This document shows positions 6,122-25,124 of a stretch of DNA of 64,000 bases, in pieces. This stretch comes from Rhodovibrionaceae bacterium (GTDB lineage: Bacteria > Pseudomonadota > Alphaproteobacteria > Kiloniellales > DSM-21159), in contig JANQMX010000002.1 of the NCBI GenBank assembly GCA_028279885.1, positions 1 to 64,000 of the forward strand, in the 5' to 3' direction. The position numbers and the translations under genes were made by a program. Position 1 is the first letter of the stretch, and every line of letters begins with the position of its first letter. The notes beneath the pieces were generated by a model that saw nothing but the letters and a program-made list of their open reading frames with translations, had not been told where the DNA came from and ran no database searches.

Positions 6122-6139
6122 TGTCAAGTTAAACTGACA
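6122..6139 (-). promoter_or_regulatory. PpsR/CrtJ operator in the bchG promoter
   Basis: The 18-mer TGTCAAGTTAAACTGACA is an exact TGT-N12-ACA match to the PpsR/CrtJ consensus. Read toward bchG it ends in TTGACA, a perfect -35 hexamer; the downstream -10 is poorly defined. A second imperfect half-box (TGT-N12-ACG) lies at 6096-6113, nearer the gene, as expected for cooperative paired sites. The site falls between divergently placed bchG and the 3' end of ppsR. Confidence 0.75.
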
Positions 6140-6206: not shown

Positions 6207-7649
6207 CTACTGGATGTCTTGGCTGGCGACGCTGATGCCGTAGCGGCGGAGCTTGGCGTAGAGGCTCTGCCGGCTCAGGCCGAGCATCTGTGCCGCCGAT
6301 GCCCGGTTGTCTCCGGTCAACTTCAGCGCGGCCTCGATGCACAGCCGCTCAATGATATCGGTCGCTTCTCGCACCAGCTCTTTCAGTGGGACGCGCCCGA
6401 CCAGCTCGGTCAGCTGATCGACCGACTGCGGCAGCTCCTGGTTCATGCGGAAGTCGAGCCCGACACGACGGCCGACGTTGCGAATCACGAAGCCGACGCA
6501 AGGCTCCTCGCCGTTCTCTACCGAGACGGCCGAGATCTCGATCTCGTCGGTGGTGCCGAGCTCCGAATGCAGCACCGAACCGTAGTTGTTGATGGCGCCA
6601 TGATCGCGCAGGGCCTTGGACAGGATCTGAGTGTCGACACCGGGGCGCCCCACCCAGCGTTCGATCGACTGGCCTTTGGCCTGCGCCTCGCTGGCCAGCT
6701 GAACCATCTCAAGAAAGGCGGCATTGGCCGTCAGGATGCGCCAGGTCGGATCGGTGACGACGAAGCCGTCGGGCATATGCTCCATCACCTTGAGCGCTCG
6801 CGGCTCGGTCTTGAGCAGGTTCACATCGCTAAGAACGCCGCGCAGCGGATGCAGACGAACCAGGAAGTGCGCCGTCCGCTCCTGCCGGAACAGCGTGGCC
6901 GAGACGCTGAGTTGCCGATCGTTCGCCGCAAGCGCGGCATTCACCTCGTCGCCGCGCCCGATTGCCCGCGCCGTGGCCAAGAGCGCTTCCAGTCCCGCCC
7001 GGCTCGCTGTCCCGAACATCTCCATGAAAGACTTGCCGACCAGCGTTCTTTCGTCGCCCTCCAGCAGGTCGCCGACCGCGGGATTGGCATCGACGACGCT
7101 CATGGTGTTGGCGTCGACGATGACGACGGCCTCCGAGGAGATCTGGAACAGCAGGCGATAACGGGTTTCCGCATGGCGCAGGCGCGCGTACTCGCGCTCC
7201 ATCGATTGCTGGAATCCCATGAAGCGCTGCTGGGTGGCCGCGACCGCGGTCAAATCCCGGCCGATCGCGACAATCCGGCCGCAGGTACCGGCCTGAAGCG
7301 CTGTATAGCGGATCGGCGTTGTTAGATTCTCGGCCGCGAGATGATTGATTTCTCGCCAGCGGGTCGGTTCCTCTCCCTTGGCCGCCTTCATCAGGCTGTC
7401 GACTTTGGCGCGGCTTTCCGCCGTCACCGTGTCGACCCAGGGATAGCCGATCCAGCGCCGAACGTCCTCCAGCCCGCCGCCCTCGGTACCGAGGGCTACG
7501 TCGCAGATCGTTCCGTCAGGGTCGAGGAGCAGGGCGATATCGGATGCCGTGGCGATCAGTCGTGCCGCCATGTCAGCATCGAGATCTCCAAGAGCCGATT
7601 TTGGTTCGCTGAAAGGTATTATATCGTCTTGAGAGGCCCGATGCTCCAT
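6207..7649 (-). CDS. ppsR: Transcriptional repressor of photosynthesis genes PpsR/CrtJ
   Basis: Redox- and light-responsive repressor of bch, crt and puc genes under aerobic conditions. The 480-residue product has an N-terminal region, PAS-like domains (about 30-140, 160-275 and 285-395) joined by a helix at 140-165, and a C-terminal Fis-type helix-turn-helix (GDNRASAAQMLGLSRQSLY, about 446-464). Length and layout match PpsR. Cysteines are C49, C123, C384 and C437; C437 sits in the DNA-binding domain, like the redox cysteine of CrtJ. No cysteine lies between 124 and 383, so the PAS-domain partner (C251 in R. sphaeroides) is missing. It is seven bases downstream of aerR/ppaA and probably co-transcribed with it. 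Confidence 0.95.
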   Translation of the reverse strand: MEHRASQDDIIPFSEPKSALGDLDADMAARLIATASDIALLLDPDGTICDVALGTEGGGLEDVRRWIGYPWVDTVTAESRAKVDSLMKAAKGEEPTRWREINHLAAENLTTPIRYTALQAGTCGRIVAIGRDLTAVAATQQRFMGFQQSMEREYARLRHAETRYRLLFQISSEAVVIVDANTMSVVDANPAVGDLLEGDERTLVGKSFMEMFGTASRAGLEALLATARAIGRGDEVNAALAANDRQLSVSATLFRQERTAHFLVRLHPLRGVLSDVNLLKTEPRALKVMEHMPDGFVVTDPTWRILTANAAFLEMVQLASEAQAKGQSIERWVGRPGVDTQILSKALRDHGAINNYGSVLHSELGTTDEIEISAVSVENGEEPCVGFVIRNVGRRVGLDFRMNQELPQSVDQLTELVGRVPLKELVREATDIIERLCIEAALKLTGDNRASAAQMLGLSRQSLYAKLRRYGISVASQDIQ

Positions 7650-7656
7650 TGCGTCC

Positions 7657-8616
7657 CTACAGTCTCTTCGCGCGAGGTGCTCCTCCCATCGCGCGTCTGG
7701 AGGCCAGCAGCTTGTCTGCCAGCAACACTGCCTGAGGGGCGTTGCCCGCTATTCCGTCCGCATCGATCTGCGAGGATAGTTCAGGCTGTCGCTCGAAAGC
7801 GGACCCACCGACAATTACGATCAAGTTGGGGTTACACGACGAACGCCGCAGGCGCCCGATAGCAGACTGCAAGGTATCCAGCAAGTCCTCGCAGGCGAGG
7901 GAAAAGCCAATCAAGGCAATCCACTCGTCTCGGACGGCCGCTTCTGCCGAGCCATTCATCTGCCGTGTCGCCACCAACTCCCAACCGGCGCGCCGGAAGA
8001 AGTGCTCCACCATGGACACGCCGAAGCTGTGCTGCTCGCCTGGGGCAGGCAGCAGCATCGCCCGGCGCCTTGGGTGTGCCTCGTCCGTTGCATAGGGCTC
8101 GAAGTCTGGCGTCAAGTGATGAAGAATCTGCTGCAGCTTCGCCAAGCCGATGGTCACGTCGACAAAGCTCCACTCGTCGGCGAGCCAAAGATCGCCCATC
8201 AGGTGAGCGGTCGGCCCGAGGAGATCGAGAAAGATCGAATCCAGGGATGCGTATTCCGCGCGCAACAGCTCGACGTGAGCCAAGGCGACACCGACATCGT
8301 GGTTGAGCACCAGCTCGGCGAAAGCCTGCACGTCATCCGCGGTGATCGGCGGCGTGCCGCCGTCTGCCGTGACGTGCGTGTGGGACTCGCCACTGTGTGC
8401 CAGCTTCAACCGTGGGATGATCTCACCTTCTATGGTGCGCGCCAGTCGCGCGCCTTGCTCTGCATCCAGTGCGGTCTCCGCACTGCTGTGGCTATCGAGA
8501 CGGTCGCCAGTAGCCTTTTTATTGTGTTCTGGGCTGTCGACGCGGTGCGTGCCTTCAGCACCGCCATGCTCGGAGACTGACTGGCCTAGCCGGAAATCCT
8601 TAATCACTCGGCCCAT
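7657..8616 (-). CDS. aerR: B12-binding photosynthesis regulator AerR/PpaA
   Basis: AerR/PpaA is an antirepressor-type partner of CrtJ/PpsR that binds cobalamin through a SCHIC-type domain. The 319-residue product carries the conserved segment ARTIEGEIIPRLKLAH (about 59-74), the helical block with LLGPTAHLMGDLW (about 132-144), and the cobalamin-fold loop GEQHSFG with candidate axial ligand H196. A predicted nucleotide-fold end, VIVGGSAFE, follows. The ATG at 8616 has a strong Shine-Dalgarno (ggggagga). The first ~55 residues are a poorly conserved extension, so an internal start producing a short isoform, as known for AerR, is possible. ppsR follows directly. Confidence 0.9.
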   Translation of the reverse strand: MGRVIKDFRLGQSVSEHGGAEGTHRVDSPEHNKKATGDRLDSHSSAETALDAEQGARLARTIEGEIIPRLKLAHSGESHTHVTADGGTPPITADDVQAFAELVLNHDVGVALAHVELLRAEYASLDSIFLDLLGPTAHLMGDLWLADEWSFVDVTIGLAKLQQILHHLTPDFEPYATDEAHPRRRAMLLPAPGEQHSFGVSMVEHFFRRAGWELVATRQMNGSAEAAVRDEWIALIGFSLACEDLLDTLQSAIGRLRRSSCNPNLIVIVGGSAFERQPELSSQIDADGIAGNAPQAVLLADKLLASRRAMGGAPRAKRL

Positions 8617-8719
8617 TTGCGGTCCTCCCCGCCCTCTGTTTTGCGACTTCAGCCTGTAGGCTGCGCGCTTTTTCAGACCATTACCTCACCACGACCGGGG
8701 TTTCCTGTCTATTCGAAAA

Positions 8720-8737
8720 CGTCAACCAAGCCTGACA
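8720..8737. promoter_or_regulatory. PpsR-like operator near the aerR start
   Basis: CGTCAACCAAGCCTGACA is a one-mismatch TGT-N12-ACA box (first base C). It lies in the aerR-bchF spacer, about 104 bases before aerR and 150 bases from the second box at 8888. Read leftward it contains TTGACG, but no good -10 is visible at the right distance. The rest of the 348-base spacer (8617-8964) shows no gene. Confidence 0.5.
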
Positions 8738-8887
8738 CTCGTACTCCAGCCTGTGGAAATGTGGCTCGTTCAGGCAGCAAATCGACGTTCTCCCTCCGGT
8801 TTCGAGGCAATCGCCAAGCACTAGGGCGGAACTCCGAACTCGCGCCTAGTCTAGCGTTAGAAATATCCAAATGTAAAGTTCGATGAA

Positions 8888-8928
8888 CGTCAAGTTTGGT
8901 TGACACCCGCAGGAAAGCCGACTTAAAT
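8888..8928 (+). promoter_or_regulatory. bchF superoperon promoter with overlapping PpsR box
   Basis: A perfect -35 TTGACA (8900-8905), a 17-base spacer and a -10 TTAAAT (8923-8928) form a strong vegetative-type promoter. The box CGTCAAGTTTGGTTGACA (8888-8905, perfect GTCAA-N6-TTGAC inverted repeat, one mismatch to TGT-N12-ACA) ends on the -35. PpsR bound there would block RNA polymerase. Transcription would start near 8935, about 30 bases before bchF. Confidence 0.78.
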
Positions 8929-8964
8929 TCCGTCTTGTCAGTGCACCAATTCGGGAGCCAGGGC

Positions 8965-10796
<1,832 letters not shown>

Positions 10797-10802
10797 ACGG
10801 CG

Positions 10803-12437
10803 ATGCAGCTCACCGTCTGGACATACGAGGGACCGCCGCACGTCGGCGCCATGCGCATCGCCACCGCGCTAGAGGATGTGCACTACGTGCTGCACGCACC
10901 CCAGGGCGATACCTACGCAGACCTGCTGTTCACGATGATCGAGCGCCGCGATAAGCGCCCGCCGGTGACCTACACCACCTTCCAGGCGCGCGACCTGGGT
11001 GGCGACACGGCAGAGCTGTTCAAGGATGCGGCGCGCGACGCGGTCGAGCGCTTCGCGCCCCAGGCCATCCTGGTTGGCGCCTCCTGCACCGGCGAGCTGA
11101 TCCAGGACGATCCGGCCGGGCTCGCCAAGGCGCTCGGCCTCTCGCTGCCGGTCATCCCGCTGGAGCTGCCCTCTTACAGCAAGAAAGAGAACTGGGGCGC
11201 CGCCGAGACCCTCTATCAACTGGTCCGCGGCCTCGCCGGTCCGCACGTGCCCAAGCCCGGCGAAGAGCGCCCGGCGCGTGACCCTGAGACGCGGCCCAAA
11301 TGCAACATCCTTGGCCCGACGGCGCTGGGCTTCCGCCACCGCGACGACGTGATCGAAGTGCGCAAGCTGCTCGAGTCCCTCGGCATCGACGTGCACGTGG
11401 TGGCGCCCATGGGTGCCACGGCAGCGGAGATCGCCCGCGTCGGCGAGGCGGACTTCAACGTCGTGCTCTATCCGGAGATCGGGCGCTCCACTGCAAGCTG
11501 GCTGAAGCGCATGTTCGGCCAGCCCTTCACGACAGTGGTGCCGATCGGCATCGGCGCAACCCGCGAGTTCATTCGCGAGGTTGCCGAGATCGCCGGCGTC
11601 GACCCGAGCGCAGCACTGGCGGGAGAGCCTTCGCGTCTGCCTTGGTGGTCGCGCTCGATCGACTCGACCTACCTGACCAACAAGCGCGTCTTTGTCTTCG
11701 GCGACGGCACCCACGCCATCGCCGCGGCCCGCGTCGCCCAGGAAGAGCTGGGCTTCCAGGTCGTCGGGCTCGGCTCCTACAGCCGCGAGATGGCGCGCGA
11801 GCTGCGCGCCGCCGCTGCCCTCTATGACGTCGAGCCTTTGATCACCGACGACTATCTGGAGGTCGAGGAGAAGATCGAGGAGCTGCAGCCGGAGCTGGTT
11901 CTCGGCACCCAGATGGAGCGCCATATCGCCAAGCGCCTGGGCGTCGGCTGTGCCGTTATCTCCGCCCCAGTCCACGTGCAGGACTATCCCGCCCGCTACG
12001 CCCCGCAGATGGGCTGGGAGGGCGCCAACGTCCTCTTCGACACCTGGGTGCATCCCCTGGTCATGGGCCTGGAAGAGCACCTCCTGGGTATGTTCCGCGA
12101 GGACTTCGAGTTCCACGACGAGGCCGGCGCCTCCCACCTCGGCCACGGGGCGAAAGGCACGACGCAAACAGCCGCCGAGGCGGAGGAAGACAGCGAGCCG
12201 GAGGCTCAGGCCGCACCCGAAGAGACGATCGAGACGCCCGCTGCGCCGCAGCCTGCCAGTGCACAATCCGCGGGGGCGCCGGCCTGGACCGACGAGGCCG
12301 AAACGGAGTTGCGCAAGATCCCCTTCTTCGTGCGGGGCAAGGCACGGCGCAACACGGAGAAATACGCCGCCCAGTTGGGCTTGACCGCGATCACACTAGA
12401 GACGCTCTACGATGCCAAAGCGCACTTCGGGAAATAG
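10803..12437 (+). CDS. bchB: Light-independent protochlorophyllide reductase subunit B
   Basis: B subunit of dark-operative protochlorophyllide reductase, 544 residues, forming the substrate pocket with BchN. It opens with [20 protein letters not shown] and contains [12 protein letters not shown] with the cluster-ligand cysteine. The C-terminal domain, from about residue 498 ([20 protein letters not shown]), is the BchB-specific helical lid found in PF08369-type tails. Between about residues 449 and 494 lies a low-complexity Ala/Glu/Pro linker. The last 26 bases overlap the start of bchH in another frame. Confidence 0.96.
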
Positions 12438-15400
12438 CGCGACGAGCAAGACCCCCGTCCGGGTGGTCCTGATCACCCTGGACCGCCATTTGGCCAGCGC
12501 CACCGCGCGCGCCACGGCGGCGCTAAAGCGCGACATCCCGGGGTTGGAGCTTGCTTTCCATGCCGCGACCGACTGGGCCGGTAATCCGGAGTCGCTGGCG
12601 CGCTGCAAGGCGGACATCGCCAAGGGCGACATCGTCATCGCCTGCATGCTGTTCGTCGAGGAGCATATCCAGGCCGTCCTGCCCGACCTGCAGGCCCGGC
12701 GCGATGACTGCGACGCCATGGTCGGCTGCGTCTCGGCCGGCGAGGTCATCCGCCTCACCAAGCTCGGCCGCTTCGCCATGGACGGCTCGGGGCAGGGCGG
12801 CATGCTCTCCCTGCTCAAGCGCCTGCGCGGCGGCAACAAGAAGAAGCCCGGCATGAGCGCCGGCGCGCAGCAGGTGGCGATGCTGCGGCGCCTGCCGAAG
12901 ATCCTGCGCTTCATCCCCGGCACGGCTCAGGACGTGCGCGCCTACTTCCTGACCATGCAGTATTGGCTGGCCGGCTCGGAGCATAACCTGGCCAACCTGG
13001 TGCGCTTCCTGATCGACCGCTATGCCGCCGGCCCGCGTGCTGCGCTGCACGGTGCTTTGACGGTCCAGCCACCGCTCGATTACCCGGATCTTGGCCTCTA
13101 TCACCCGCGCCTCGGCAAGAGCATCGTCGAGCGGGTGAGCAAGCTGCCGAGGCCGAAAGGGAAGAGCCAGGGACGGGTCGGCTTGCTGCTCATGCGCTCC
13201 TACGTGCTGGCCGGCGACACTGGTCACTACGACGGCGTGATCGCCGCCATGGAGGCCCGCGGCTTGCAAGTCGTGCCTGCCTTCGCCGTCGGTCTCGACT
13301 GCCGCCCTGCCATCGAAGAGTACTTCATCGAGGACGGGCGTCCCGTCGTCGACAGCGTCGTTTCGCTGACCGGTTTCTCCCTGGTCGGCGGGCCGGCCTA
13401 CAACGATGCCAAGGCGGCCGAGGAGATGCTGGCCGCTCTCGACGTGCCCTACATCGCGGCCCAGGCGGTGGAGTTTCAGAGCCTGGAGCAGTGGGGCCGC
13501 TCGACCCGCGGCCTGATGCCCGTCGAGTCGACCATCCAGATCGCGCTGCCGGAGCTGGACGGCGCAGTGGGCGCTACCGTGTTCGGTGGCCGCTCGGACG
13601 GGTCGGGCCAGCCCTGTGAAGGCTGCGAGCGCCACTGCAAGTTCGATGCGGACGGCGCGCAGGACATGCATGCCTGTCTGGACCGGGCCGATGCGCTGGC
13701 ATCGCGGATCTCCAAGCTGGTCGCCCTGCGCCGTGCCGAGCGGGCCGAGCGCAAGGTCGGCATCGTGCTTTTCAACTTCCCACCCAACAGCGGCGCCACC
13801 GGCACGGCCGCCTTCCTCGATGTCTTCGCCTCGCTCTACGCGACCCTGCGGGCGATGAAGGCAGAGGGCTACGACGTCGACCTGCCGGAGAGCATCGAGG
13901 CCCTCAGGGCCGCGCTGCTGGAAGGCAATGCCGAGCGTCACGGCGCCGATGCCAATGTGGCCGCCCGCATATCGGTCGAAGACCATGTACGCCGCGAGCC
14001 CTGGCTGAAAGACATCGAGCAGGCTTGGGGCGCCGCACCTGGCCGGCATCTGACCGACGGTCGCGATCTCTTCGTGCTCGGCGCTCAGCTCGGCAAGGTC
14101 TTCGTCGGCGTGCAGCCGAGCTTCGGCTACGAAGGCGATCCCATGCGCCTGCTGTTCGAGCAGGGCCTGGCGCCGACCCACGCCTTCAGCGCTTTCTATC
14201 GCTGGCTGCGCGAGGACTTCGGCGCCCATGCGGTGCTCCACTTCGGCACCCATGGCGCACTAGAGTTCATGCCGGGCAAGCAGGCCGGGGTGTCTGGCGC
14301 CTGCTGGCCGGACCGGCTGATCGGCGACCTGCCGAACTTCTATCTCTATGCCGCCAACAACCCATCCGAGGGCACCATCGCCAAGCGCCGTTCCGGCGCG
14401 ACGACGATCACCTACATGGCGCCGCCGGTGGCCCACGCCGGCCTCTATCGCGGCCTCAGCGATCTGCGCGCCTCGATCGACCGCTGGCGCAGCCTGCCGC
14501 CTGCCGCCGAGCAGGAGCGGGCCGATCTGGAGCCGCTCATTCAGGCGCAGGCGGCCGAGGTCGAGCTCGCCGCGCCCGAGCCGTTGTGGAACGGCGACGC
14601 CGGCGAGCGCATCGCCACCCTCAACGGCGAGCTGCAGGAAATCGAGCAGTCGCTGATTCCCCACGGTCTGCACGTGGTCGGCACGCCGCCCAGCGCCGAG
14701 GAGCGTGCGGAGCTGCTCTTCGCCATGGCCGAACTGGAGTCGGTCTCGGCCCCCTCAATGAACGCCGTTGAAGCCATCGTCGCTGGCAAGACGCCCGGTG
14801 AGGCCGCGAAACTGGACGGACACGGTGACGACGATCGACTCATCGCCATCCTCACCGGTTTGGCGGATGCCAACGAGAAGCTGCAAGGCGAGCACGAGCT
14901 GGAAGGCATCATGCACGCCCTTGACGGCGGCTACATCCGCCCGGTGCCCGGCGGCGATCTGCTGCGCACGCCGGAGACTTTGCCGACCGGGCGCAACCTG
15001 CATGGTTTCGACCCCTTCCGCATTCCCAGCGCTTTCGCGGTCGCCGACGGCGCCCGCCAGACCCAGCGCCTGCTCGACCGCCATCAGGCCGAGAGCGGCG
15101 ACCTGCCAAGCTCTGTGGCTTTCGTGCTCTGGGGGACGGACAACCTGAAGAGCGAGGGCGGGCCCATCGGACAGGTCCTGGCGCTGATCGGGGCCAAGCC
15201 GCGCTTCGACGGCTACGGCCGTCTCTGCGGCGCCGAGCTGATCTCCCTCGAAGAGCTGGGCCGGCCGCGCATCGACGTGGTGGTCACTCTCTCCGGCATC
15301 TTCCGCGATCTGCTGCCGCTGCAGACCAAGCTCTTGGCCGAGGCCTGCTATCTCGCGGCCAGTGCTGACGAACCGCTCGAGATGAACTTCCTGCGCAAGC

Positions 15401-16209
15401 ACGCTCTGGCCTACCAGGAGACGCACGGTTGCGATCTGGAAACGGCATCGCTGCGCGTCTTCTCCAACGCCGACGGCGCCTACGGGGCGAACGTCAACCA
15501 GCTGATCGAGAGCGGCGCCTGGAGCGACGAGGGCGAGCTGGCCGACACTTACACCCGGCGCAAGTGTTTCGCCTACGGCCGCAGCGGCCGCCCGGTGAAG
15601 CAGGCGGAGCTGCTGCAGTCGATGCTGAGCGATGTCTCCATGGCCTATCAGAACCTGGAGTCGATCGAGGTCGGCATCACCACCGTCGATCACTACTTCG
15701 ACACGCTGGGCGGCATCAGCCAGGCGGTGCAGACTGCGCGCGGCGAGGTCATCCCGGTCTACATCGGCGATCAGACCCGCAGCGAAGGCACCGTGCGCAC
15801 CCTGAGCGAACAGGTCAGCCTGGAGACCCGCACCCGCATCCTCAATCCGCGCTGGTACGACGGCATGCTGCGCCACGGCTACGAGGGCGTGCGCCAGATC
15901 GAAGCCACCGTCACCAACACCATGGGATGGTCGGCCACCACCGGCCAGGTGCAGCCCTGGGTCTACAGCCAGGTCAGCGAGACCTTCGTGCTCGACCCCG
16001 AAATGCGCCAGCGCCTGGCGGAGCTCAATCCCAAGGCCCTGGCCAAGGTCGCCAACCGTCTGTTGGAGGCCCACGACCGCAACTATTGGACGCCTGACGA
16101 AACGACCCTGGATGCCTTGCGGCAAGCCGGGGAGGAGCTGGAGGACCGCCTCGAAGGGCTGCCGCAAAGCCAGACCTCCTCGCAAGTCACCCAAGGCGTT
16201 CCCGCATAA
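12412..16209 (+). CDS. bchH: Magnesium chelatase subunit H
   Basis: Large porphyrin-binding subunit of Mg-chelatase, which with BchI and BchD inserts Mg2+ into protoporphyrin IX, the first committed step of the pathway. The 1265-residue product has the expected length and CobN/BchH-family sequence throughout, including FHYGTHG-like [15 protein letters not shown] (about residues 610-624) and the conserved C-terminal segment [17 protein letters not shown]. Start chosen at the ATG lying within the end of bchB (26-base overlap); the next in-frame codons begin the conserved region (VRVVLITLD) 16 residues later. bchI and bchD are not in the window. Confidence 0.96.
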
Positions 16210-17129
<920 letters not shown>

Positions 17130-17130
<1 letters not shown>

Positions 17131-17831
17131 TGCCAACCGCAAGCTTCGCCCAGCGCCGCAGTCAGCTGGAGGCCTACTTCGATCGCACCGCGGTCGATGC
17201 CTGGGCACGCCTGACCTCCGATGCGCCGGTCAACAAGATCCGCGAAACGGTGCGCCAGGGCCGCGACCGCATGCGGGCGAAGCTGCTGTCCTACCTTCCG
17301 CATGACTTGAGCGGCGCGCGTCTGTTGGACGCCGGCTGCGGCACCGGCCTCTTGGCGGTGGAGGCGGCGCGGCGCGGCGCTTCGGTCACCGCCGTCGATC
17401 TCTCGCCCAGCCTCATTTCCTTGGCAGCCGAACGGCGGCCCGAGGATGTGGACCCGGCCAAGCTCGACTTCCAGGTGGGCGACATGCTGGAGACCGGCGA
17501 AGGCCGCTTCGACTTCGTCGTCGCCATGGACTCGCTGATTCACTATACGGCCGGTGACATGGTTGTGGCGCTCGGCCGTCTGGCGGATCGCACCGATCAT
17601 TCGCTCGTCTTCACCTTCGCGCCGCGCACCCCGGCGCTCACCGCTATGCACACCGTCGGTCAGCTCTTCCCGCGCGGCAATCGCTCGCCGGCCATCGAGC
17701 CGGTCGGCCCCGGCGTGCTGCATCGGCGAATCGCCGGCGCGCAGGCGCTCTCCGATTGGCATATCGGCCGCAGCGAACGGATCGTCAGCGGCTTCTACAC
17801 CTCACAGGCGCAGGAACTGACTCGCGGATGA
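17130..17831 (+). CDS. bchM: Magnesium-protoporphyrin IX methyltransferase
   Basis: SAM-dependent O-methyltransferase that converts Mg-protoporphyrin IX to its monomethyl ester, the substrate of AcsF further down the operon. The 233-residue product has the class I motif LLDAGCGTGLLAVEAARRG (motif I at about residue 66) and FDFVVAMDSLIHY (motif II/III). The ATG at 17130 overlaps the bchL stop by one base (TGATG). Its own stop overlaps the lhaA start as ATGA. Confidence 0.95.
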
Positions 17832-19282
17832 GAGGTTTGAGCGACAGGGTTGCGCGTAACTGGATGCGGCTCGGCCCGCGGTACCTGCCGTTTGCCGATG
17901 CCGCCAGCGACGAGTTGCCGCTCGGCCGCTTGTTGCGCCTGTCGCTTTTCCAGGTTTCCGTCGGAATGGCCCTGGTGCTGCTGACCGGGACGCTCAACCG
18001 GGTGATGATCGTCGAGCTCGACGTACCGGCGGGCCTGGTCGCAACCATGGTCGCCCTTCCCGTGCTCTTCGCGCCCTTCCGCGCGCTGATCGGCTTCCGT
18101 TCGGACACCCACCGCTCGGCTCTCGGCTGGCGGCGCGTCCCCTTCATCTGGTTCGGCACTCTGCTGCAGTTCGGCGGCCTGGCGATCATGCCCTTCGCCT
18201 TGCTGGTGCTCTCCGCCGATCAGCTGCACGGCCCTGAAGAGGCGCGCTACATCGGCGCCGCCCTGGCCTTCCTGCTGGTCGGCGCCGGCCTGCACACCAC
18301 GCAGACCGCCGGCTTGGCGTTGGCCACGGATTTGGCCCCGGCCGAGTCGCGCCCGCGGGTCGTGGCGCTGCTCTATGTCATGCTGCTGCTCGGCATGGTC
18401 GTCAGCGCCTTCATCTTCGGCCTGCTGCTCGGCGACTTCGACCCGGGCCGGCTCATCCAGATCATTCAGGCAGCGGCGGTGGTCACCGTCCTGCTCAACA
18501 TCGTCGCCCTGTGGAAGCAGGAAGTGCGGGCGCCCGAGCGCACGCGCAAGGATCTGCCACGGCCGAGCTTTGCCGACGCCTGGCGCGACATCCAAGACGG
18601 TGGCCGCACCAAGCGCTTGCTCGTCGCCGTCTTCCTGGGCACGGCCGGCTTCTGCATGCAGGACATCCTGCTCGAGCCCTATGGCGGCGAGGTCTTGGGC
18701 CTCAACGTCGGCGCCACCACCTTGCTGACCGCGATCCTGGCGGGTGGTTCGCTCGCCGGCTTCGCCTTCGCCGCCCGGGCTCTGACGCGCGGCTTCGATC
18801 CTTTCCGCTTGGCAGCACTCGGCAGCCTGGTCGGCATCTTCGCCTTCGCCGCGGTGATCTTCGCGGCACCGCTTGAGTCCGCCGGCCTGTTCCGCTCCGG
18901 CACGGCGATGATCGGCTTCGGCGGCGGCCTGCTGGCGGTCGGCACCCTGACCGCCGCCATGGCCATCGCGGACGGCGACACCTCCGGCAACGGCTTGGCG
19001 CTGGGCGCCTGGGGCGCGGTGCAGGCGACGGCAGCGGGTGCCGGCATCGCGCTTGGCGGCCTGCTGCGCGACCTGGTGAGTGGCCTGGCGGCTGCGGGTC
19101 ACCTCGGCCCCGGGCTGACGTCACCGGATATCGGTTACTCGGTGGTCTACCACTTGGAGATTCTTTTGCTTTTCGCGGCGCTGGTCGCGCTCGGCCCGCT
19201 GGTGCGCCGCCGCGCATCGGCCGGTTGGCAAGCCAGTCGACAAGGCTCGGGCCGCTTCGGCCTAGCCGACCTGCCCGGATAG
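17828..19282 (+). CDS. lhaA: Light-harvesting 1 assembly protein LhaA (BCD-family MFS)
   Basis: Second BCD-family protein of the window (484 residues, about 12 transmembrane helices). It contains the hallmark TGTLNRVMIVELDVPAG near residue 60 and GWRRVPFIW a little further on. LhaA-type proteins, encoded between bchM and puhA in purple bacteria, are needed for LH1 assembly, probably by delivering bacteriochlorophyll. The ATG overlaps the bchM stop. After the last helix there is a short basic/Ser-Gly tail. Identification rests on family and on the fixed position bchM-lhaA-puhA. Confidence 0.92.
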   Translation: MRGLSDRVARNWMRLGPRYLPFADAASDELPLGRLLRLSLFQVSVGMALVLLTGTLNRVMIVELDVPAGLVATMVALPVLFAPFRALIGFRSDTHRSALGWRRVPFIWFGTLLQFGGLAIMPFALLVLSADQLHGPEEARYIGAALAFLLVGAGLHTTQTAGLALATDLAPAESRPRVVALLYVMLLLGMVVSAFIFGLLLGDFDPGRLIQIIQAAAVVTVLLNIVALWKQEVRAPERTRKDLPRPSFADAWRDIQDGGRTKRLLVAVFLGTAGFCMQDILLEPYGGEVLGLNVGATTLLTAILAGGSLAGFAFAARALTRGFDPFRLAALGSLVGIFAFAAVIFAAPLESAGLFRSGTAMIGFGGGLLAVGTLTAAMAIADGDTSGNGLALGAWGAVQATAAGAGIALGGLLRDLVSGLAAAGHLGPGLTSPDIGYSVVYHLEILLLFAALVALGPLVRRRASAGWQASRQGSGRFGLADLPG

Positions 19283-19325
19283 GCAGGGCCGCGTCACAAC
19301 AGCTTCTGAATGGAGGTTCAGTCTC

Positions 19326-20276
19326 ATGGAAACCGGCGCGATCACCAACGAAATCGATGTGGCGCAACTGGTTCTCTACGCCTTCTGGGTATTCTTTGCC
19401 GGCCTGATTTTCTACCTGCGCATGGAGGACAGGCGGGAAGGCTATCCTCTGGAATCCGAAGTGACCGGCGAGCCGATCGACCCGGGCGCGATCTACGGCC
19501 CTTCGTTGAAGGTCTTCAAACTGCCGGACGGTTCGACGCTCGACACCATGCGGCCGGACACGCGGCCGCTCGCGCTCAAGCCGATGGAGGTCTTCTCCGG
19601 TGGGGCCTCCGAGCCGACCGGCGACCCGATGATCGACGGGGTCGGCGCGGCGGCCTGGGTGGAACGCCGCGACGTGGTCGACCGGACCGGCGAGGGCGAG
19701 CCGCGCATCGTGCCCATGCGTCTGCTTCCGGATTACTCGGTTGCCGAACAGGACATCGACCCGCGCGGTCTTCCCGTCATCGCCTGCGACGGCAAAGTCG
19801 CCGCAACAGTGAAGGACATCTGGCTCGACCGCGGCGAGTGCTTCATTCGCTACCTCGAGCTCGAACTTCCGCAAGAGAAGCAAGCGGCGCCGAGCCCGGC
19901 ACCGGCCGTTGCTGAAGCCCCGACAGCGCAAGCGCCTGTGGGTGACGCGCCGACGGGAGAGGTGGCGCCGATGGGAGAGTCAGCCCCGATGGGTGGGGAT
20001 GCGCCGGCAGCGCCAGCCCCAACAGCGCCAGCCCCTCAGCCGGCTCCGGTGGTTCAGGCTCCAACGGGCGCGCTGCTGATGCCGATGACCATGGTGCGCC
20101 TGTCATCTCGGCCCGCGCAGGTGAAGACGGGCTCGATCCGCAGCGATCAGTTCGCCGACGTGCCGCGCACCAAGAGTCTCGACCAGATCACCCTGCTCGA
20201 GGAAGAGAAGGTCATGGCCTACTTCACCGGCGGCTATCTCTATGCCGAGCCCGAGCGCCAGGAGCCCTTGATCTAA
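19326..20276 (+). CDS. puhA: Reaction centre H subunit with an unusual Ala/Pro-rich insertion
   Basis: H subunit of the reaction centre, capping the cytoplasmic face of L/M and guiding protons to QB. One N-terminal transmembrane helix (about residues 12-31) is followed by the PRC-barrel cytoplasmic domain, with GLPVIACDGKVAATVKDIW and the C-terminal block QFADVPRTKSLDQITLLEEEK. The product is 316 residues against about 255-260 usual. The excess is a low-complexity Ala/Pro/Gly segment, about residues 183-248, inserted between the strand IRYLELEL and the strand LLMPMTMVRL. It has loose APxG repeats. Start has a ggaggttcag Shine-Dalgarno. It begins 43 bases after lhaA. Confidence 0.96.
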   Translation: METGAITNEIDVAQLVLYAFWVFFAGLIFYLRMEDRREGYPLESEVTGEPIDPGAIYGPSLKVFKLPDGSTLDTMRPDTRPLALKPMEVFSGGASEPTGDPMIDGVGAAAWVERRDVVDRTGEGEPRIVPMRLLPDYSVAEQDIDPRGLPVIACDGKVAATVKDIWLDRGECFIRYLELELPQEKQAAPSPAPAVAEAPTAQAPVGDAPTGEVAPMGESAPMGGDAPAAPAPTAPAPQPAPVVQAPTGALLMPMTMVRLSSRPAQVKTGSIRSDQFADVPRTKSLDQITLLEEEKVMAYFTGGYLYAEPERQEPLI

Positions 20277-20321
20277 CGCGCCAATCGAGGCCGCCGACGC
20301 AGTTTTTGGAGAGACAGAACG

Positions 20322-21026
20322 ATGTGCGAGATCGAAGTCGAGCAAATCCCCGGGCTCCCGGGCAAACTCCCCGAGGGAGAGCGGCTGCTCTGGCAGGGCA
20401 GGCCGTCGTGGTGGGCCTTGGCGCGCCGCTGCTTCAAGGTCCGGGCCATTGCCATCTACTTCGCCATCTTCGCGGTCTGGTGGACGGTATCGGCCTTGTC
20501 CGATGGCGTGGGCTGGGGACAGGCGCTGCTGGACGGACTGGCCGTCGTTCCAGTCGCCGCCCTGGCGATCGCGGTGGTCGCCGGTCTCGCCTGGCTGACG
20601 GCACACAACTCGATCTACAGCATCACCAGCAAGCGCGTCGTCATCCGCACCGGCATTGCCTTGCCCATGACGTTCAATGTGCCGTTCAGCCGGATCGCTT
20701 CCGCCAACATGAAGGTCGAGGCCAACAAGAGCGGCGACATCGTCCTGGCGCTGAGCGGCCGCGACCGAATTGCCTATGCCCATCTCTGGCCGCACGTGCG
20801 TCCCTGGTACCTCAAGGACGTGCAGCCCATGCTGCGCGGCCTGCCGAACGTGCAGGAGGTCGGCGCTTTGCTCTCGAACGCGCTGGCCGGGGCCTCGGCC
20901 CAGACCGCGGAGCAGGCTGAAAGCGTCACGGCGGAGCCGGAGCTCTTGGACAAGCGGGGCAAGGAGCGGCCCTGGCAAGGCGAGCCGCGTCCTGCCGGCG
21001 CCGTGCCCCTGGCCGCCGCCGAGTAG
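20322..21026 (+). CDS. puhB: Photosynthetic complex assembly protein PuhB
   Basis: Membrane protein needed for efficient reaction-centre assembly. The 234-residue product has an N-terminal soluble strand rich in GLPGKLPEGERLLWQG, two to three hydrophobic helices (about 45-65 and 75-95), then a PH-like domain beginning NSIYSITSKRVVIRTGIALP and ending in a charged Ala/Glu-rich tail. The start ATG at 20322 follows ttttggagag. The order puhA-puhB-puhC is standard in purple bacteria. Confidence 0.93.
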   Translation: MCEIEVEQIPGLPGKLPEGERLLWQGRPSWWALARRCFKVRAIAIYFAIFAVWWTVSALSDGVGWGQALLDGLAVVPVAALAIAVVAGLAWLTAHNSIYSITSKRVVIRTGIALPMTFNVPFSRIASANMKVEANKSGDIVLALSGRDRIAYAHLWPHVRPWYLKDVQPMLRGLPNVQEVGALLSNALAGASAQTAEQAESVTAEPELLDKRGKERPWQGEPRPAGAVPLAAAE

Positions 21027-21059
21027 CGCCGCAGCGTCGCCCTGATGGGAGAGTCCCGG

Positions 21060-21536
21060 ATGACCGAGAAGATCTACCACAGCAACCCCTTTCCCAAGGC
21101 GGTGCTTTGGGGTGCCGGCGTGCTGCTCGCCCTCAGCTTGGTCGCCGTGGCCTTCGGCCGTTTCACCGGCATCGGCACGGTGATGAACCCGCAGGCCAAG
21201 CCGCGCGTGGTCCACAGCCTCCATTTCGACGACCGCGCCGACGGGGCCGTGGTGATCACCGATGCGGAAACGCAGCAAGTGGTTCTGGAGCTTGAGCCGG
21301 GAACCAACGGTTTCGCCCGCGGCGTCATGCGGGGCATGGCGCGGGGCCGTAAGCTCGAGGGGCTGGGCAACGAAACGCCGTTCCAGCTGGTCAGCTGGAG
21401 CGACGGGCGCCTGACACTGTCGGACCCGGCGACCGGCCACGTCGTCGAGATGAACGCCTTTGGTGAGACCCAACTGGAGAGCTTTGCGGCGATCTTGAAC
21501 GCCGCCTCCGCCAAGCAGGAGAGCGTAACGCAATGA
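21060..21536 (+). CDS. puhC: Photosynthetic complex assembly protein PuhC
   Basis: PuhC, 158 residues, one N-terminal transmembrane helix (about residues 13-35) and a periplasmic domain; required for optimal RC-LH1 formation. Family traits visible are the N-terminal NPFPKAVLWGAG and the GFARGVMRGMARGRKLEG segment. ATG 21060 is preferred over 21045 because the gggaga Shine-Dalgarno lies between them. The stop overlaps the next start as ATGA. Confidence 0.9.
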   Translation: MTEKIYHSNPFPKAVLWGAGVLLALSLVAVAFGRFTGIGTVMNPQAKPRVVHSLHFDDRADGAVVITDAETQQVVLELEPGTNGFARGVMRGMARGRKLEGLGNETPFQLVSWSDGRLTLSDPATGHVVEMNAFGETQLESFAAILNAASAKQESVTQ

Positions 21537-21835
21537 CCTTCTCTCTTTTTGCCCGGCGCAGTGTCGAGGTGCCCTGTCGGATCGAGGTGGCGAACACCTT
21601 CGAGAGCCTGCATGCCCACGTCGACCTCGCCCGGGAAAGCGACCTGCAGCCGGGCGATGAAGTGCGGGTGCACGGCGCCGACATTCATGCTGCGTACGGC
21701 GAGAGCTTTACGCTCGAACGCAGCGCCACGGTGACTCGCGCCAGCTGGCTGGAGCGCGCCGTGACCCGAGTTCTGGGCAACTTCGAATTCATGGAGCTGC
21801 TCGATATCAGCTTTAGCGACAGGAGAAAGCTATGA
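21533..21835 (+). CDS. Small conserved puh-acsF operon protein of unknown function
   Basis: A 100-residue soluble, acidic product with no transmembrane segment and no motif I recognise. It starts in the puhC stop (ATGA) and its own stop overlaps the acsF start (ATGA), so it is tightly coupled on both sides. The sequence looks like a compact beta-rich fold: [21 protein letters not shown], then [14 protein letters not shown], then a C-terminal amphipathic helix with [21 protein letters not shown]. Small open frames at this place, between puhC and acsF, are known from other purple bacteria, but I know of no defined function. An assembly or cyclase-associated role is inferred only from position. 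Confidence 0.85.
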
Positions 21836-22965
21836 CCGCAGCCGCTCGCCGCATCGTACCGGCAGACAATGAGTACGTGAAAGCCGAGCTGGCGAAGAAC
21901 GGTATCGACGCTACGGCAGACAACGGGCCGAACGAGTCGACCCGGACGGCGCAAGAGGACACGCTGCTCAGCCCGCGCTTCTACACCACCGACTTCGACG
22001 CCCTGGATGCGATCGACGTCTCGCCGGTGCGCGCGGAATGGGACGCCTTGTTGGAGGAGCTGGCCGAGGATCGGAACAAGCGGCACTTCAAGCGCGACGA
22101 AGACTGGCATCAGCAGATCCGCGATCTGCCGGAGGGTCTGCGCAAGGAGTTCATGGACTTCCTGATCTCCTCGCTGACCGCCGAGTTCTCAGGCTGCGTG
22201 CTCTATGCCGAGATGCGCAAGCGCGGCACCAACAAGGACATCATCGATCTCTTCAAGTACATGAGCCGCGACGAAGCGCGCCACGCCGGCTTCCTCAACG
22301 ACACGCTGAAGGACTTCGGCATCGGCGTCGATCTCGGCTTCCTGACCAAGACCAAGAAGTACACCTACTTCCAGCCCAAGTTCATCTTCTACGCGGTCTA
22401 CCTGTCGGAGAAGATCGGCTACGCGCGCTACATCACCATCTTCCGCCATCTGCAGAACCATCCCGATCGGCGCTTCCATCCGATCTTCAAGTGGTTCGAG
22501 CAGTGGTGTAACGACGAGTTCCGCCACGGCGAGGCCTTCGCCCTTCTGATGCGGGCGCAGCCGCATACCCTGCGCGGCCTCAACAAGCTCTGGATCCGCT
22601 TCTTCCTGCTGGCGGTCTTCGCCACCATGTACGTGCGCGACCATGCGCGGCCCGAGTTCCATGAGGCGCTCGGCGTCGATATCGACGACTACGACATGCG
22701 TGTCTTCCGCATCACCACGGAGATCTCGAAGCAGATCTTCCCGCTGACCCTCGACATCGACAACCCGCGCTTCAAGCAGCTGATGGACCTGCTGCTGCGG
22801 ACCTCGGTGAAGATCGATCAGGCCAAGCGCCGCGGCGGCGTTGTCGGCGCCCTGAAGCGCATCGGCTTGGCCGGTGTGGCGGCGACCACCTTGGCACGGC
22901 TCTATCTGCTGCCGGTCAAGCGCAACACGCCGCCGGCCGACAGCCGCCTGGTCCCCGCCTGGTAA
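21832..22965 (+). CDS. acsF: Aerobic Mg-protoporphyrin IX monomethyl ester (oxidative) cyclase
   Basis: Di-iron, O2-dependent cyclase that forms the isocyclic ring E of (bacterio)chlorophyll. The 377-residue product has the two carboxylate-bridge motifs, DEARHAGF (about residues 145-152) and [10 protein letters not shown] (about 225-234), with further Glu ligands in [14 protein letters not shown]. Family length is normal. It is coupled to the upstream small gene by ATGA. The O2-independent alternative BchE is not in this window, so at least this route needs oxygen. Confidence 0.96.
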
Positions 22966-22984
22966 GAAGGAACCAAGGGGTAGA

Positions 22985-23872
22985 ATGGAAACTTACGGCG
23001 TTCCCGCACTCTTTGCCGTGCTGGTCTGGTGGTGGAGCACGGGGGCCATCCTCTGGCTGGTCAGCCTGCCGCGCCGCTACCACCCGACGCTGTTCGTCGG
23101 CGCCACCCTGCTGCTGCCCATGGCAGTTTGGGGCGTGGTGACCAGCAGCGGCAACGCCAACATGTTCGGCGCCTATCTCGGCTTCGCCGCGGCGATCGGT
23201 GTCTGGGCCTGGCATGAGCTGGCCTTTCTGCTGGGTTACATCACCGGGCCCAATACCGAGCATTGCCCTGAGGGCGCCAGCGGCTGGCGCCGTTTCTCCG
23301 CCGCCACGCGCACCGTGATCTACCATGAGATCGCCTTGGCCCTGACCGTGGTGGCGCTGCTTTGGCTGCTGTGGGACTCGCCCAACCAGGTTGCCGCCTG
23401 GACCTTCATGGTGCTCTGGATCATGCGGCTCAGCGCCAAGCTCAACGTCTTCTTTGGCGTCCCGAACATGGCCGAGGAGTTCCTGCAGCCGCATCTCGCC
23501 TACATGAGCAGCTACTTCCGCAAGCGGCCGGTCACACCCCTCTTCTCCGTCGTGGTGACGGCGGCGACGGCCGTTGCGGTGCTGGTGGTCTTGCGCATGA
23601 TCGACACCGCCACCCCGATGTGGGAGACGGCGGCCCTCGGGCTCGCCGGCACGCTGCTGCTGCTGGCCATCATCGAGCATTGGTTCCTGGTCCTGCCCGT
23701 GCGGGAGGCCGTCTTGTGGCGCTGGGCGCAGCGCAAGAGCGACGGCCCCCCTGCGCCGGCCGCGCCGCCGAAAACTAGAAGTGCATCAGAGTGTGAGGTG
23801 TCAGTGAACGGTCTGCCGTCCGGCAGTCCGCCAACCGCGTTGCTTAGGCCGACGGCGTCGACCGCCGGCTAA
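22985..23872 (+). CDS. puhE: Photosynthetic complex protein PuhE
   Basis: Membrane protein of the PuhE family (DUF3623), a modulator of bacteriochlorophyll production and photosystem assembly. The 295-residue product has seven to eight hydrophobic helices; recognisable stretches are WWWSTGAILWLVSLPRRYHP and MRLSAKLNVFFGVPNMAEEF. Start ATG follows ggaaccaaggggtaga. The last ~40 residues, after VLWRWAQRK, are Pro/Ser-rich, use AT-rich rare codons (AAA, ACT, AGA, TCA) and contain a short hairpin at 23813-23826, so this tail may overlap regulatory DNA for hemA. Confidence 0.9.
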   Translation: METYGVPALFAVLVWWWSTGAILWLVSLPRRYHPTLFVGATLLLPMAVWGVVTSSGNANMFGAYLGFAAAIGVWAWHELAFLLGYITGPNTEHCPEGASGWRRFSAATRTVIYHEIALALTVVALLWLLWDSPNQVAAWTFMVLWIMRLSAKLNVFFGVPNMAEEFLQPHLAYMSSYFRKRPVTPLFSVVVTAATAVAVLVVLRMIDTATPMWETAALGLAGTLLLLAIIEHWFLVLPVREAVLWRWAQRKSDGPPAPAAPPKTRSASECEVSVNGLPSGSPPTALLRPTASTAG

Positions 23873-23903
23873 ACGATAACAAAACAACTGGGAAAGACGA
23901 CCC

Positions 23904-25124
23904 ATGGACTATCAAGCCTTCTTCGAACAGCAGCTCGACGCTCTCAGGACCGAGGGCCGCTACCGCGTGTTCGCCGATCTGGAACGCAAGCTGGGCAACT
24001 TTCCGCGGGCCACCCGACATAAACGCAGCGAGAAGTCGGAGGTCACCGTCTGGTGCTCCAACGACTACCTCGGCATGGGGCAGAACCGCACGGTCATCGA
24101 TGCGATGCACGAGGCGCTGGAGCGCTGCGGCGCAGGGGCCGGGGGCACGCGCAACATCTCCGGCACCAATCACTACCACGTGCTCTTGGAGCGTGAGCTG
24201 GCCGACCTCCACGGCAAGGAGGCCGCGCTGCTCTTCACCTCGGGCTACGTCTCCAACTGGGCCAGTCTCACGACCCTGGCGGCGAAACTGCCGAACTGCG
24301 CGGTGTTCTCGGACTCGCTCAACCACGCGTCGATGATCGAAGGCATCCGCCACAGCCGGGCGGAAAAGCACGTCTTCGCCCATAACAGCCCGGACGATCT
24401 CGACCGCAAGCTTGCGATGATCGAGCCCAACCGGCCGAAGCTGGTGGCCTTCGAGTCGGTCTATTCCATGGATGGCGACATCGCCCCCATTGCCGAGCTC
24501 TGCGACGTGGCCGACAAGCACGGCGCCATGACCTATCTCGACGAGGTGCACGCGGTCGGGCTCTACGGACCGCGCGGCGGCGGCGTCGCCGAGCGCGAAG
24601 GCCTGATGGATCGCCTGACGCTGATCGAGGGCACGCTGGGCAAGGCCTTCGGCGTGGTCGGCGGCTATATCGCCGGCTCCGCCGCGCTCTGCGACTTCGT
24701 GCGCTCCTATGCCAGCGGCTTCATCTTCACCACCGCGCTGCCTCCGACCGTGGCGGCGGGTGCCATTGCTTCGGTGCGGCATCTCAAGACCAGCCAGGCC
24801 GAGCGCCTGACTCAGCGCGAGCGGGTGGCGCAGCTGCGCGCCCGCCTCGATGCGGCCGGCATTCCGCATATGCAGAACCCGAGCCACATCGTGCCGGTGA
24901 TGGTCTGTGAGCCGGTGCTCTGCAAGCAGATCAGCGACATCCTGCTGGATGACTGGGGCATCTACGTGCAGCCGATCAACTATCCCACCGTGCCGCGCGG
25001 GACGGAGCGCCTGCGCTTCACGCCCTCACCGTTGCATTCCGAACAGGACATCGACTACCTGATGGAGGCCCTGACCAGCGTCTGGGCCCAGCTCGGGCTG
25101 ATGCGGCGCGAAGCGGCGGAGTAG
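23904..25124 (+). CDS. hemA: 5-aminolevulinate synthase
   Basis: PLP enzyme condensing glycine and succinyl-CoA to 5-aminolevulinate, the first step of tetrapyrrole synthesis in alphaproteobacteria. The 406-residue product has the family motifs [37 protein letters not shown] and the PLP-lysine loop [17 protein letters not shown]. It ends the superoperon, 31 bases after puhE with a gggaaaga Shine-Dalgarno. Linking hemA to bch/puh genes matches precursor supply to pigment demand. A second, housekeeping hemA elsewhere is possible. Confidence 0.96.

Follow-up and report, generated by a model that had tools for sequence, protein, structure and literature searches.

A predicted overlapping double PpsR operator at the bchF promoter, widely conserved among bchF upstreams and missed by the standard consensus

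The window, i.e. the whole stretch of 64,000 nucleotides analysed (contig JANQMX010000002.1 of a Rhodovibrionaceae bacterium, positions 1 to 64,000), carries a row of 14 same-strand genes, bchF-N-B-H-L-M, lhaA, puhA-B-C, an orf, acsF, puhE and hemA (8965–25124, + strand), in which the widest gap is 45 bp. Its first gene, bchF (8965–9507, + strand; TIGR02020, 192 bits, cut-off 101), starts at the ATG at 8965, with a putative ribosome site GGGAG (8953–8957) seven bases upstream. The orf between puhC and acsF (21533–21835, 100 residues) had no NCBIfam or Pfam match at the thresholds used. Divergent to bchF lie aerR/ppaA (7657–8616, − strand; PF02310), which encodes a B12-binding PpsR co-regulator, and ppsR (6207–7649, − strand; TIGR02040, 453 bits, cut-off 275). 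PpsR, encoded in the same genome as the operator described here and presumed to be its binding protein, has a Fis-type HTH with the recognition helix SRQSLY and the HTH cysteine. The aerR-bchF gap measures 348 bp (8617–8964), and no Rfam match was obtained in 8500–9100 at E up to 1.

A promoter-proximal PpsR box, CGTCAAGTTTGGTTGACA, occupies 8888–8905 (+ strand). As a preliminary description of this DNA had proposed, it ends exactly on the −35 of bchF: its final six letters, which form its right half-site, are TTGACA (8900–8905, + strand). The evidence for this placement is good. Each of the 142 bchF upstreams surveyed (see below) carries a box ending TTGAC[AG], and PpsR of R. sphaeroides was found by ChIP-seq to be bound upstream of bchF (PMC4344238). 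In D. shibae, PpsR represses bchF, the box lies over the predicted −35 and box mutations derepress bchF-lacZ (PMC10890935). CrtJ ChIP peaks are reported upstream of bchF in R. capsulatus (PMC5362033). That PpsR represses bchF from such a −35 site is not new in itself, being already known in D. shibae and R. sphaeroides.

The promoter had been read as a near-ideal TTGACA-17-TTAAAT. These letters are present (TTAAAT at 8923–8928, 17 nt past TTGACA), but relatives favour another −10. Because the family-mates L015 (TAGACT), L016 and L020 (TAAATT) and L017 (TAGAGT) all align with exactly 18 nt between −35 and −10, we place the window −10 at TAAATT (8924–8929, + strand); TTGACA-18-TAAATT matches the sigma-70 promoter at 10 of 12 letters. 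Spacers were counted in the 120 of 142 loci that fit a relaxed pattern, [TCA]GT-N12-[ATG][CT]G[TC]-N9-TTGAC[AG], used for this count only. Of these, 54 have a TA...T hexamer at spacer 17 and 50 have one at spacer 18, a total of 104; no other spacer between 8 and 39 accounts for more than three loci. The relaxed pattern was dropped as a count of double boxes, for it includes chance hits (e.g. L026, L155, L156). Taken alone, the window promoter does not exceed chance, since a sigma-70 scan of 17 kb gave 2 sites against 1.5 ± 0.9 in shuffles. The predicted transcription start of bchF lies near 8936, 29 nt before the ATG. That a single predicted switch would serve all 14 genes agrees with the gene map, because these share one strand with gaps of no more than 45 bp and no perfect TGT-N12-ACA box was found inside the row.

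A third PpsR-type box, CGTCAACCAAGCCTGACA (8720–8737, + strand), lies 168 bp from the right box, i.e. 16.0 turns of 10.5. Across the 5.63 Mb of the genome, YGTCA-N8-TGACR is found 12 times and its reversed control pattern 6 times. Two of the 12 places (8720 and 8888) fall inside the 348-bp gap, against a chance expectation of about 0.001. Of the other places, one precedes bchG (6122) and two, on another contig, are upstream of bchC and crtI. The place at 6122–6139, TGTCAAGTTAAACTGACA, is the sole perfect TGT-N12-ACA in the window; it follows ppsR and stands 30 bp before bchG, so that a separate PpsR-controlled promoter is probable for this gene.

The upstream half of the operator had been overlooked. 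A left, promoter-distal PpsR box, TGTAAAGTTCGATGAACG (8872–8889, + strand), with TGT at 8872–8874 and ACGT at 8887–8890, overlaps the right box by 2 bp at an offset of 16 bp, and the two together form a 34-bp overlapping double operator, TGT-N12-ACGT-N12-ACA (8872–8905, + strand). Both boxes retain the GT-N12-AC core. The left box reads TGT-N12-ACG and the right one CGT-N12-ACA, so that neither fits the complete consensus TGT-N12-ACA and the usual consensus scan misses the operator. An offset of 16 bp is the smallest with both cores intact, a slightly smaller one destroying a core; it puts the AC of the left box beside the GT of the right one, and therefore the left box ends in G and the right box begins with C. 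The C for T at the first base, previously taken as the deviation of one weak box, is indeed there, but the box appears to be half of an overlapping double, and the C reads as a built-in consequence of the overlap and not as decay. The neighbouring box at 8720 does share this C, as described before, and sits in ACGT; its upstream TGT (8706) stands at N10, not N12, and 8706–8737 would thus be a look-alike two bases short of a proper double. The left box of the window operator matches 6 of 10 extended-consensus letters and is its weakest element, and the window alone is weak evidence for a double, as only four new letters are involved (about 1 chance in 256).

The survey of bchF upstreams comprised 142 loci: 15 of the order, 80 of the best named genomes, another 25 found when 385 alphaproteobacterial genomes were drawn evenly from the class, and 22 found in the same way among 398 genomes of the phylum. 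L018 and L019, where bchF is cut by a contig end, and L138, a broken partial match below the cut-off, were left out; a match in G584 also lies outside the 142 loci. Lineage labels taken from metagenome bins may in some cases be in error, e.g. those of the contigs L083 and L102 (Myxococcota and Polyangiaceae). The strict double YGT-N12-ACGT-N9-TTGACR is present in 105 of the 142 upstreams, from Alpha-, Beta- and Gammaproteobacteria. Because the samples overlap partly (L033 and L016, for instance, share one 34-mer), we count 97 distinct 34-mers beside the 105 loci. By sample, with the same overlap, the strict double was found in 11/15 loci of the order, 64/80 named, 22/27 class-even and 16/30 phylum-even loci. 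The close form TGT-N12-ACGT-N12-AC[AG] arises in 0–0.23% of shuffled upstreams.

The −35 box (ending TTGAC[AG]) has C as first base in 111 of the 142 loci and T in 31. In the 111 loci starting with C, four TGT/ACA letters of a second box are left unmasked per locus, and at offset −16 they match in 96%; the median letter match across offsets −60 to +40 is 25%, and −16 is the only strong offset. Columns that no filter had touched are conserved as well, namely column 4 (C/A, 100%), 5 (A, 88%), 6 (A, 87%), 20 (C/A, 97%) and 22 (A, 86%), and they resemble PpsR half-sites, TGT[CA]AA and CGT[CA]AA. Conservation ends at the left TGT. A homologue of the window aerR lies upstream and divergent in 123/142 loci, and codirectional in none. 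Three loci carry, besides the double at bchF, a further 34-bp double in the part of the gap towards aerR, its centre being TTCACGTGA (bchF-sense strand; L021, 737–770; L023, 821–854; L025, 833–866).

The element is largely confined to genomes with bchF. Searched in whole genomes, the pattern YGTMNA-N9-ACGT-N9-TTGACA occurs in 23/385 alphaproteobacterial genomes (reversed control, 2/385), i.e. in 22 of 27 genomes with bchF over the cut-off versus 1 of 358 others. Among 63 bchF-bearing genomes it was found in 43 (reversed control, 0/63). The match in G164 lies between dxs and a cytochrome gene, not at bchF, and the bchF of this genome has its own double, which the pattern narrowly missed. PpsR scored over the cut-off in all 63 bchF-bearing genomes tested, none of them being free of it.

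Presence of the strict double follows lineage. Among named loci, it is carried by 18/19 betaproteobacterial, 6/6 gammaproteobacterial, 23/27 Hyphomicrobiales and 0/7 Paracoccaceae loci; it is also carried by 0/1 Neomegalonemataceae loci and by 0/10 loci of the Rhodobacter-like family f30. Boxes and BchF proteins of family f30 resemble those of Paracoccaceae, and 16 of the 17 loci of these two families have a plain TGT-N12-ACA on the −35 with another box 124–156 bp upstream. On a BchF tree that was made quickly and has weak support, the state of the strict double changes 14 times. As it is missing in 37/142 loci, the strict double is not required for bchF control. Three order-mates (L024, L028, L029) have separate boxes at offsets of 24–26 bp, close to the offset of known tandem pairs (18 + 8) and removed from 16 by about one helical turn. 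Two Rhodopila loci, which belong to the Acetobacteraceae, show the double form at bchF; Sediminicoccus is a member of the same family.

As for the cause of the Rhodobacterales difference, an altered recognition helix of PpsR is not supported: SRQSLY is found in loci with and without the double, and the HTH segment is closely similar in both. In Methylobacteriaceae, PpsR has SRQGLY or SRQGFY (L068, L087, L089, L090, L099), most others having SRQSLY, and three of these loci (L068, L089, L099) also have the variant operator centres AGCGTC and AGTGTC. The distance from the Rhodobacterales-type −35 box to the upstream TGTCAA box is 124, 134, 142–147 or 156 bp (n = 16; L042, L053, L061, L074, L085, L097, L101, L134, L139, L140, L142, L146, L147 and L154–L156), stepping by about one helical turn as if a looping geometry were kept. 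In these 16 loci, all from related species, the phasing resultant is 0.78 at 10.5 bp, 0.74–0.79 at 10–11 bp and 0.58 at 12, and we regard the phasing of the distant box as only a lead.

Several known PpsR/CrtJ systems can be compared with the window. The ChIP-seq motif is tGTN12ACa, in which the outer t and a are weak letters (PMC5362033), and the footprinted puc promoter of Rubrivivax includes a box ending ACG (PMC4452267). A Rubrivivax bin (L039) has the double, and for R. gelatinosus both purified PpsR and a ppsR deletion have been obtained (PMC4452267). The tandem operators of R. capsulatus bchC and of Rubrivivax puc and crtI, whose boxes stand 8 or 9 bp apart, have, like the window, two GT-N12-AC boxes near a promoter; they are cooperative and spacing-sensitive, and at R. 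capsulatus bchC and Rubrivivax puc the boxes cover −35 and −10 (PMC5362033, PMC4452267). However, their offset is 26–27 bp with a gap, whereas the window boxes have an offset of 16 bp, a 2-bp overlap instead of a gap and a common ACGT; moreover, the second box of bchC lies downstream over the −10, and that of the window upstream of the −35. In R. sphaeroides and other Rhodobacterales, the right half-site is likewise the bchF −35 TTGACA, divergent from ppaA/aerR, and this bchF box is bound by PpsR in R. sphaeroides and repressed by PpsR in D. shibae (PMC4344238, PMC10890935). Unlike the window box, it is a plain TGT-N12-ACA without overlapping partner, its second box standing about 124–156 bp upstream. 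Finally, distant sites at 45–500 bp (puc, bchE, crtA-crtI) are described as box pairs acting together (PMC6199135), a relation that in the window concerns only the boxes at 8720 and 8888. Spacings reported for pairs are 8–9, 76, 240 or 45–500 bp (PMC4452267, PMC6199135, PMC9144470). We found no description of an overlapping PpsR box pair in a literature search that covered older journals thinly, and its novelty is uncertain.

Our preferred reading, to which we give a probability of about 0.7, is that the feature is the bchF operator-promoter, with two overlapping PpsR boxes on which two dimers cooperatively block the −35. The two GT-N12-AC boxes would overlap at a 16-bp dyad offset with the central ACGT common to both, and PpsR (dimer or tetramer, Fis-type HTH) would sit on the 34-mer either as a pair of dimers or as a tetramer; PpsR is reported to form dimers, tetramers and octamers (PMC3949515). 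With dyads 16 bp or about 1.5 helical turns apart, the dimers would sit roughly on opposite faces of the DNA, as they would in the known 26-bp tandem pairs (2.5 turns), and the offset would be one turn closer than the 26–27 bp of these pairs. Two recognition helices near one ACGT might clash. Under repressing conditions the right dimer, over the −35, would exclude RNA polymerase, and AerR and redox or light signals would relieve the repression. In the window family the left outer half-site is also the probable −35 of a divergent aerR-ppsR promoter (TTTACA, 8872–8877, − strand; probable −10 TAGACT, 8848–8853, − strand; spacer 18; predicted start near 8841), so that one operator would repress in both directions and could close a loop on its own repressor. 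What the sequences themselves show is the architecture, its conservation and lineage pattern, the promoter spacing and the presence of PpsR; this autoregulation, as well as PpsR binding, simultaneous occupancy and cooperativity at the 34-mer, we infer.

The main rival to two-dimer binding is a switch of register, in which PpsR sits on the left or on the right box but never on both: on the right box it would block the −35, and on the left one (about −55, e.g. with AerR) it would leave polymerase unblocked or help it. The two central base pairs common to both boxes fit such exclusion. In the Fis mode, however, recognition helices lie inside the half-sites and would here be about 5 bp apart, so that both dimers could fit. 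CrtJ is reported both as a repressor and as an activator, and AerR extends the CrtJ footprint (PMC5362033, PMC6199135, PMC9144470), which is in favour of the switch, whereas the reported tandem pairs bind cooperatively (PMC4452267, PMC6199135); we consider the switch unlikely. It is quite improbable that a single box on the −35 acts and that the upstream TGT is a coincidence. One box does seem sufficient in Rhodobacter relatives, as the R. sphaeroides bchF motif TGTAAGTCAGAATTGACA is ChIP-bound (PMC4344238) and Cereibacter ovatus (L074) has an identical box without partner at −16; both L074 boxes are those found by ChIP-seq in R. sphaeroides for ppaA and bchF (PMC4344238). The TGT and A at offset −16 in the 111 loci, at 96% of unmasked letters, and the conservation of the unselected columns 4–6 nevertheless speak against coincidence.

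The symmetry could also come from the −35 hexamers of two divergent promoters, of bchF and of aerR-ppsR, at the outer ends, the centre being secondary. The minus-strand TTTACA-18-TAGACT of the window is in line with this, and TTTACA-18-TA..[CT]T is found in 4 of 5 family members examined (the layout of 8848–8877 recurs in L016, L017 and L020, not in L015). Yet a leftward TA...T at spacer 17 or 18 exists in only 13 of 120 loci, versus 104 of 120 on the bchF side, and no promoter element includes the invariant ACGT centre. We therefore rejected divergent promoters as a general explanation outside the window family and hold them to be an improbable source of the symmetry, while within that family they can be true in addition. 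Another regulator, reading the full 34-bp palindrome or only its ACGT centre, would be the true ligand with very low probability: PpsR as ligand is so far predicted, but the half-sites are PpsR-like (TGT[CA]AA, TT[TG]AC), the element is nearly confined to bchF genomes and PpsR is encoded in each of the 63 bchF genomes tested.

Judged from its letters and conservation, the overlapping double is thus a variant operator that is conserved in many lineages and escapes the standard consensus. This matters since maps of PpsR regulons are commonly drawn by TGT-N12-ACA scans, which neither of its boxes fits; a published Sediminicoccus scan gives PpsR sites only at bchC and puc (PMC10949492), while both Rhodopila loci surveyed show the double at bchF. 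The overlapping arrangement is that of most purple bacteria examined and is not found in the Rhodobacter relatives behind much of the laboratory work; if it is bound as proposed, laboratory models carry a derived bchF operator, and the 34-bp DNA would suit direct tests of PpsR tetramer formation and of spacing-dependent redox control. We put forward a wider view tentatively, at somewhat less than even odds. The double would be the prevailing, and probably also the ancestral, bchF operator of purple bacteria, lost in Rhodobacter and invisible to consensus scans, and dimers on opposite faces, spaced by half-integer turns (1.5 in the window operator and 2.5 in the tandem pairs), would read helical phase and not distance; the Rhodobacter lineage would then be the source of the TGT-N12-ACA and 8-bp-gap rules.

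Doubles were also observed away from bchF. In L181 and L182 (1501–1534 each) they precede genes for nitrogenase-component-1-type oxidoreductases, which presumably belong to the bchN/B/Y/Z group, and the one in L167 (1501–1534) lies between a nitrogenase-component-1-type gene and an FrhB-like gene. In L220 the double (1755–1788) is found between dxs and a cytochrome c gene, and in L221 (1868–1901) it stands immediately upstream of ppsR.
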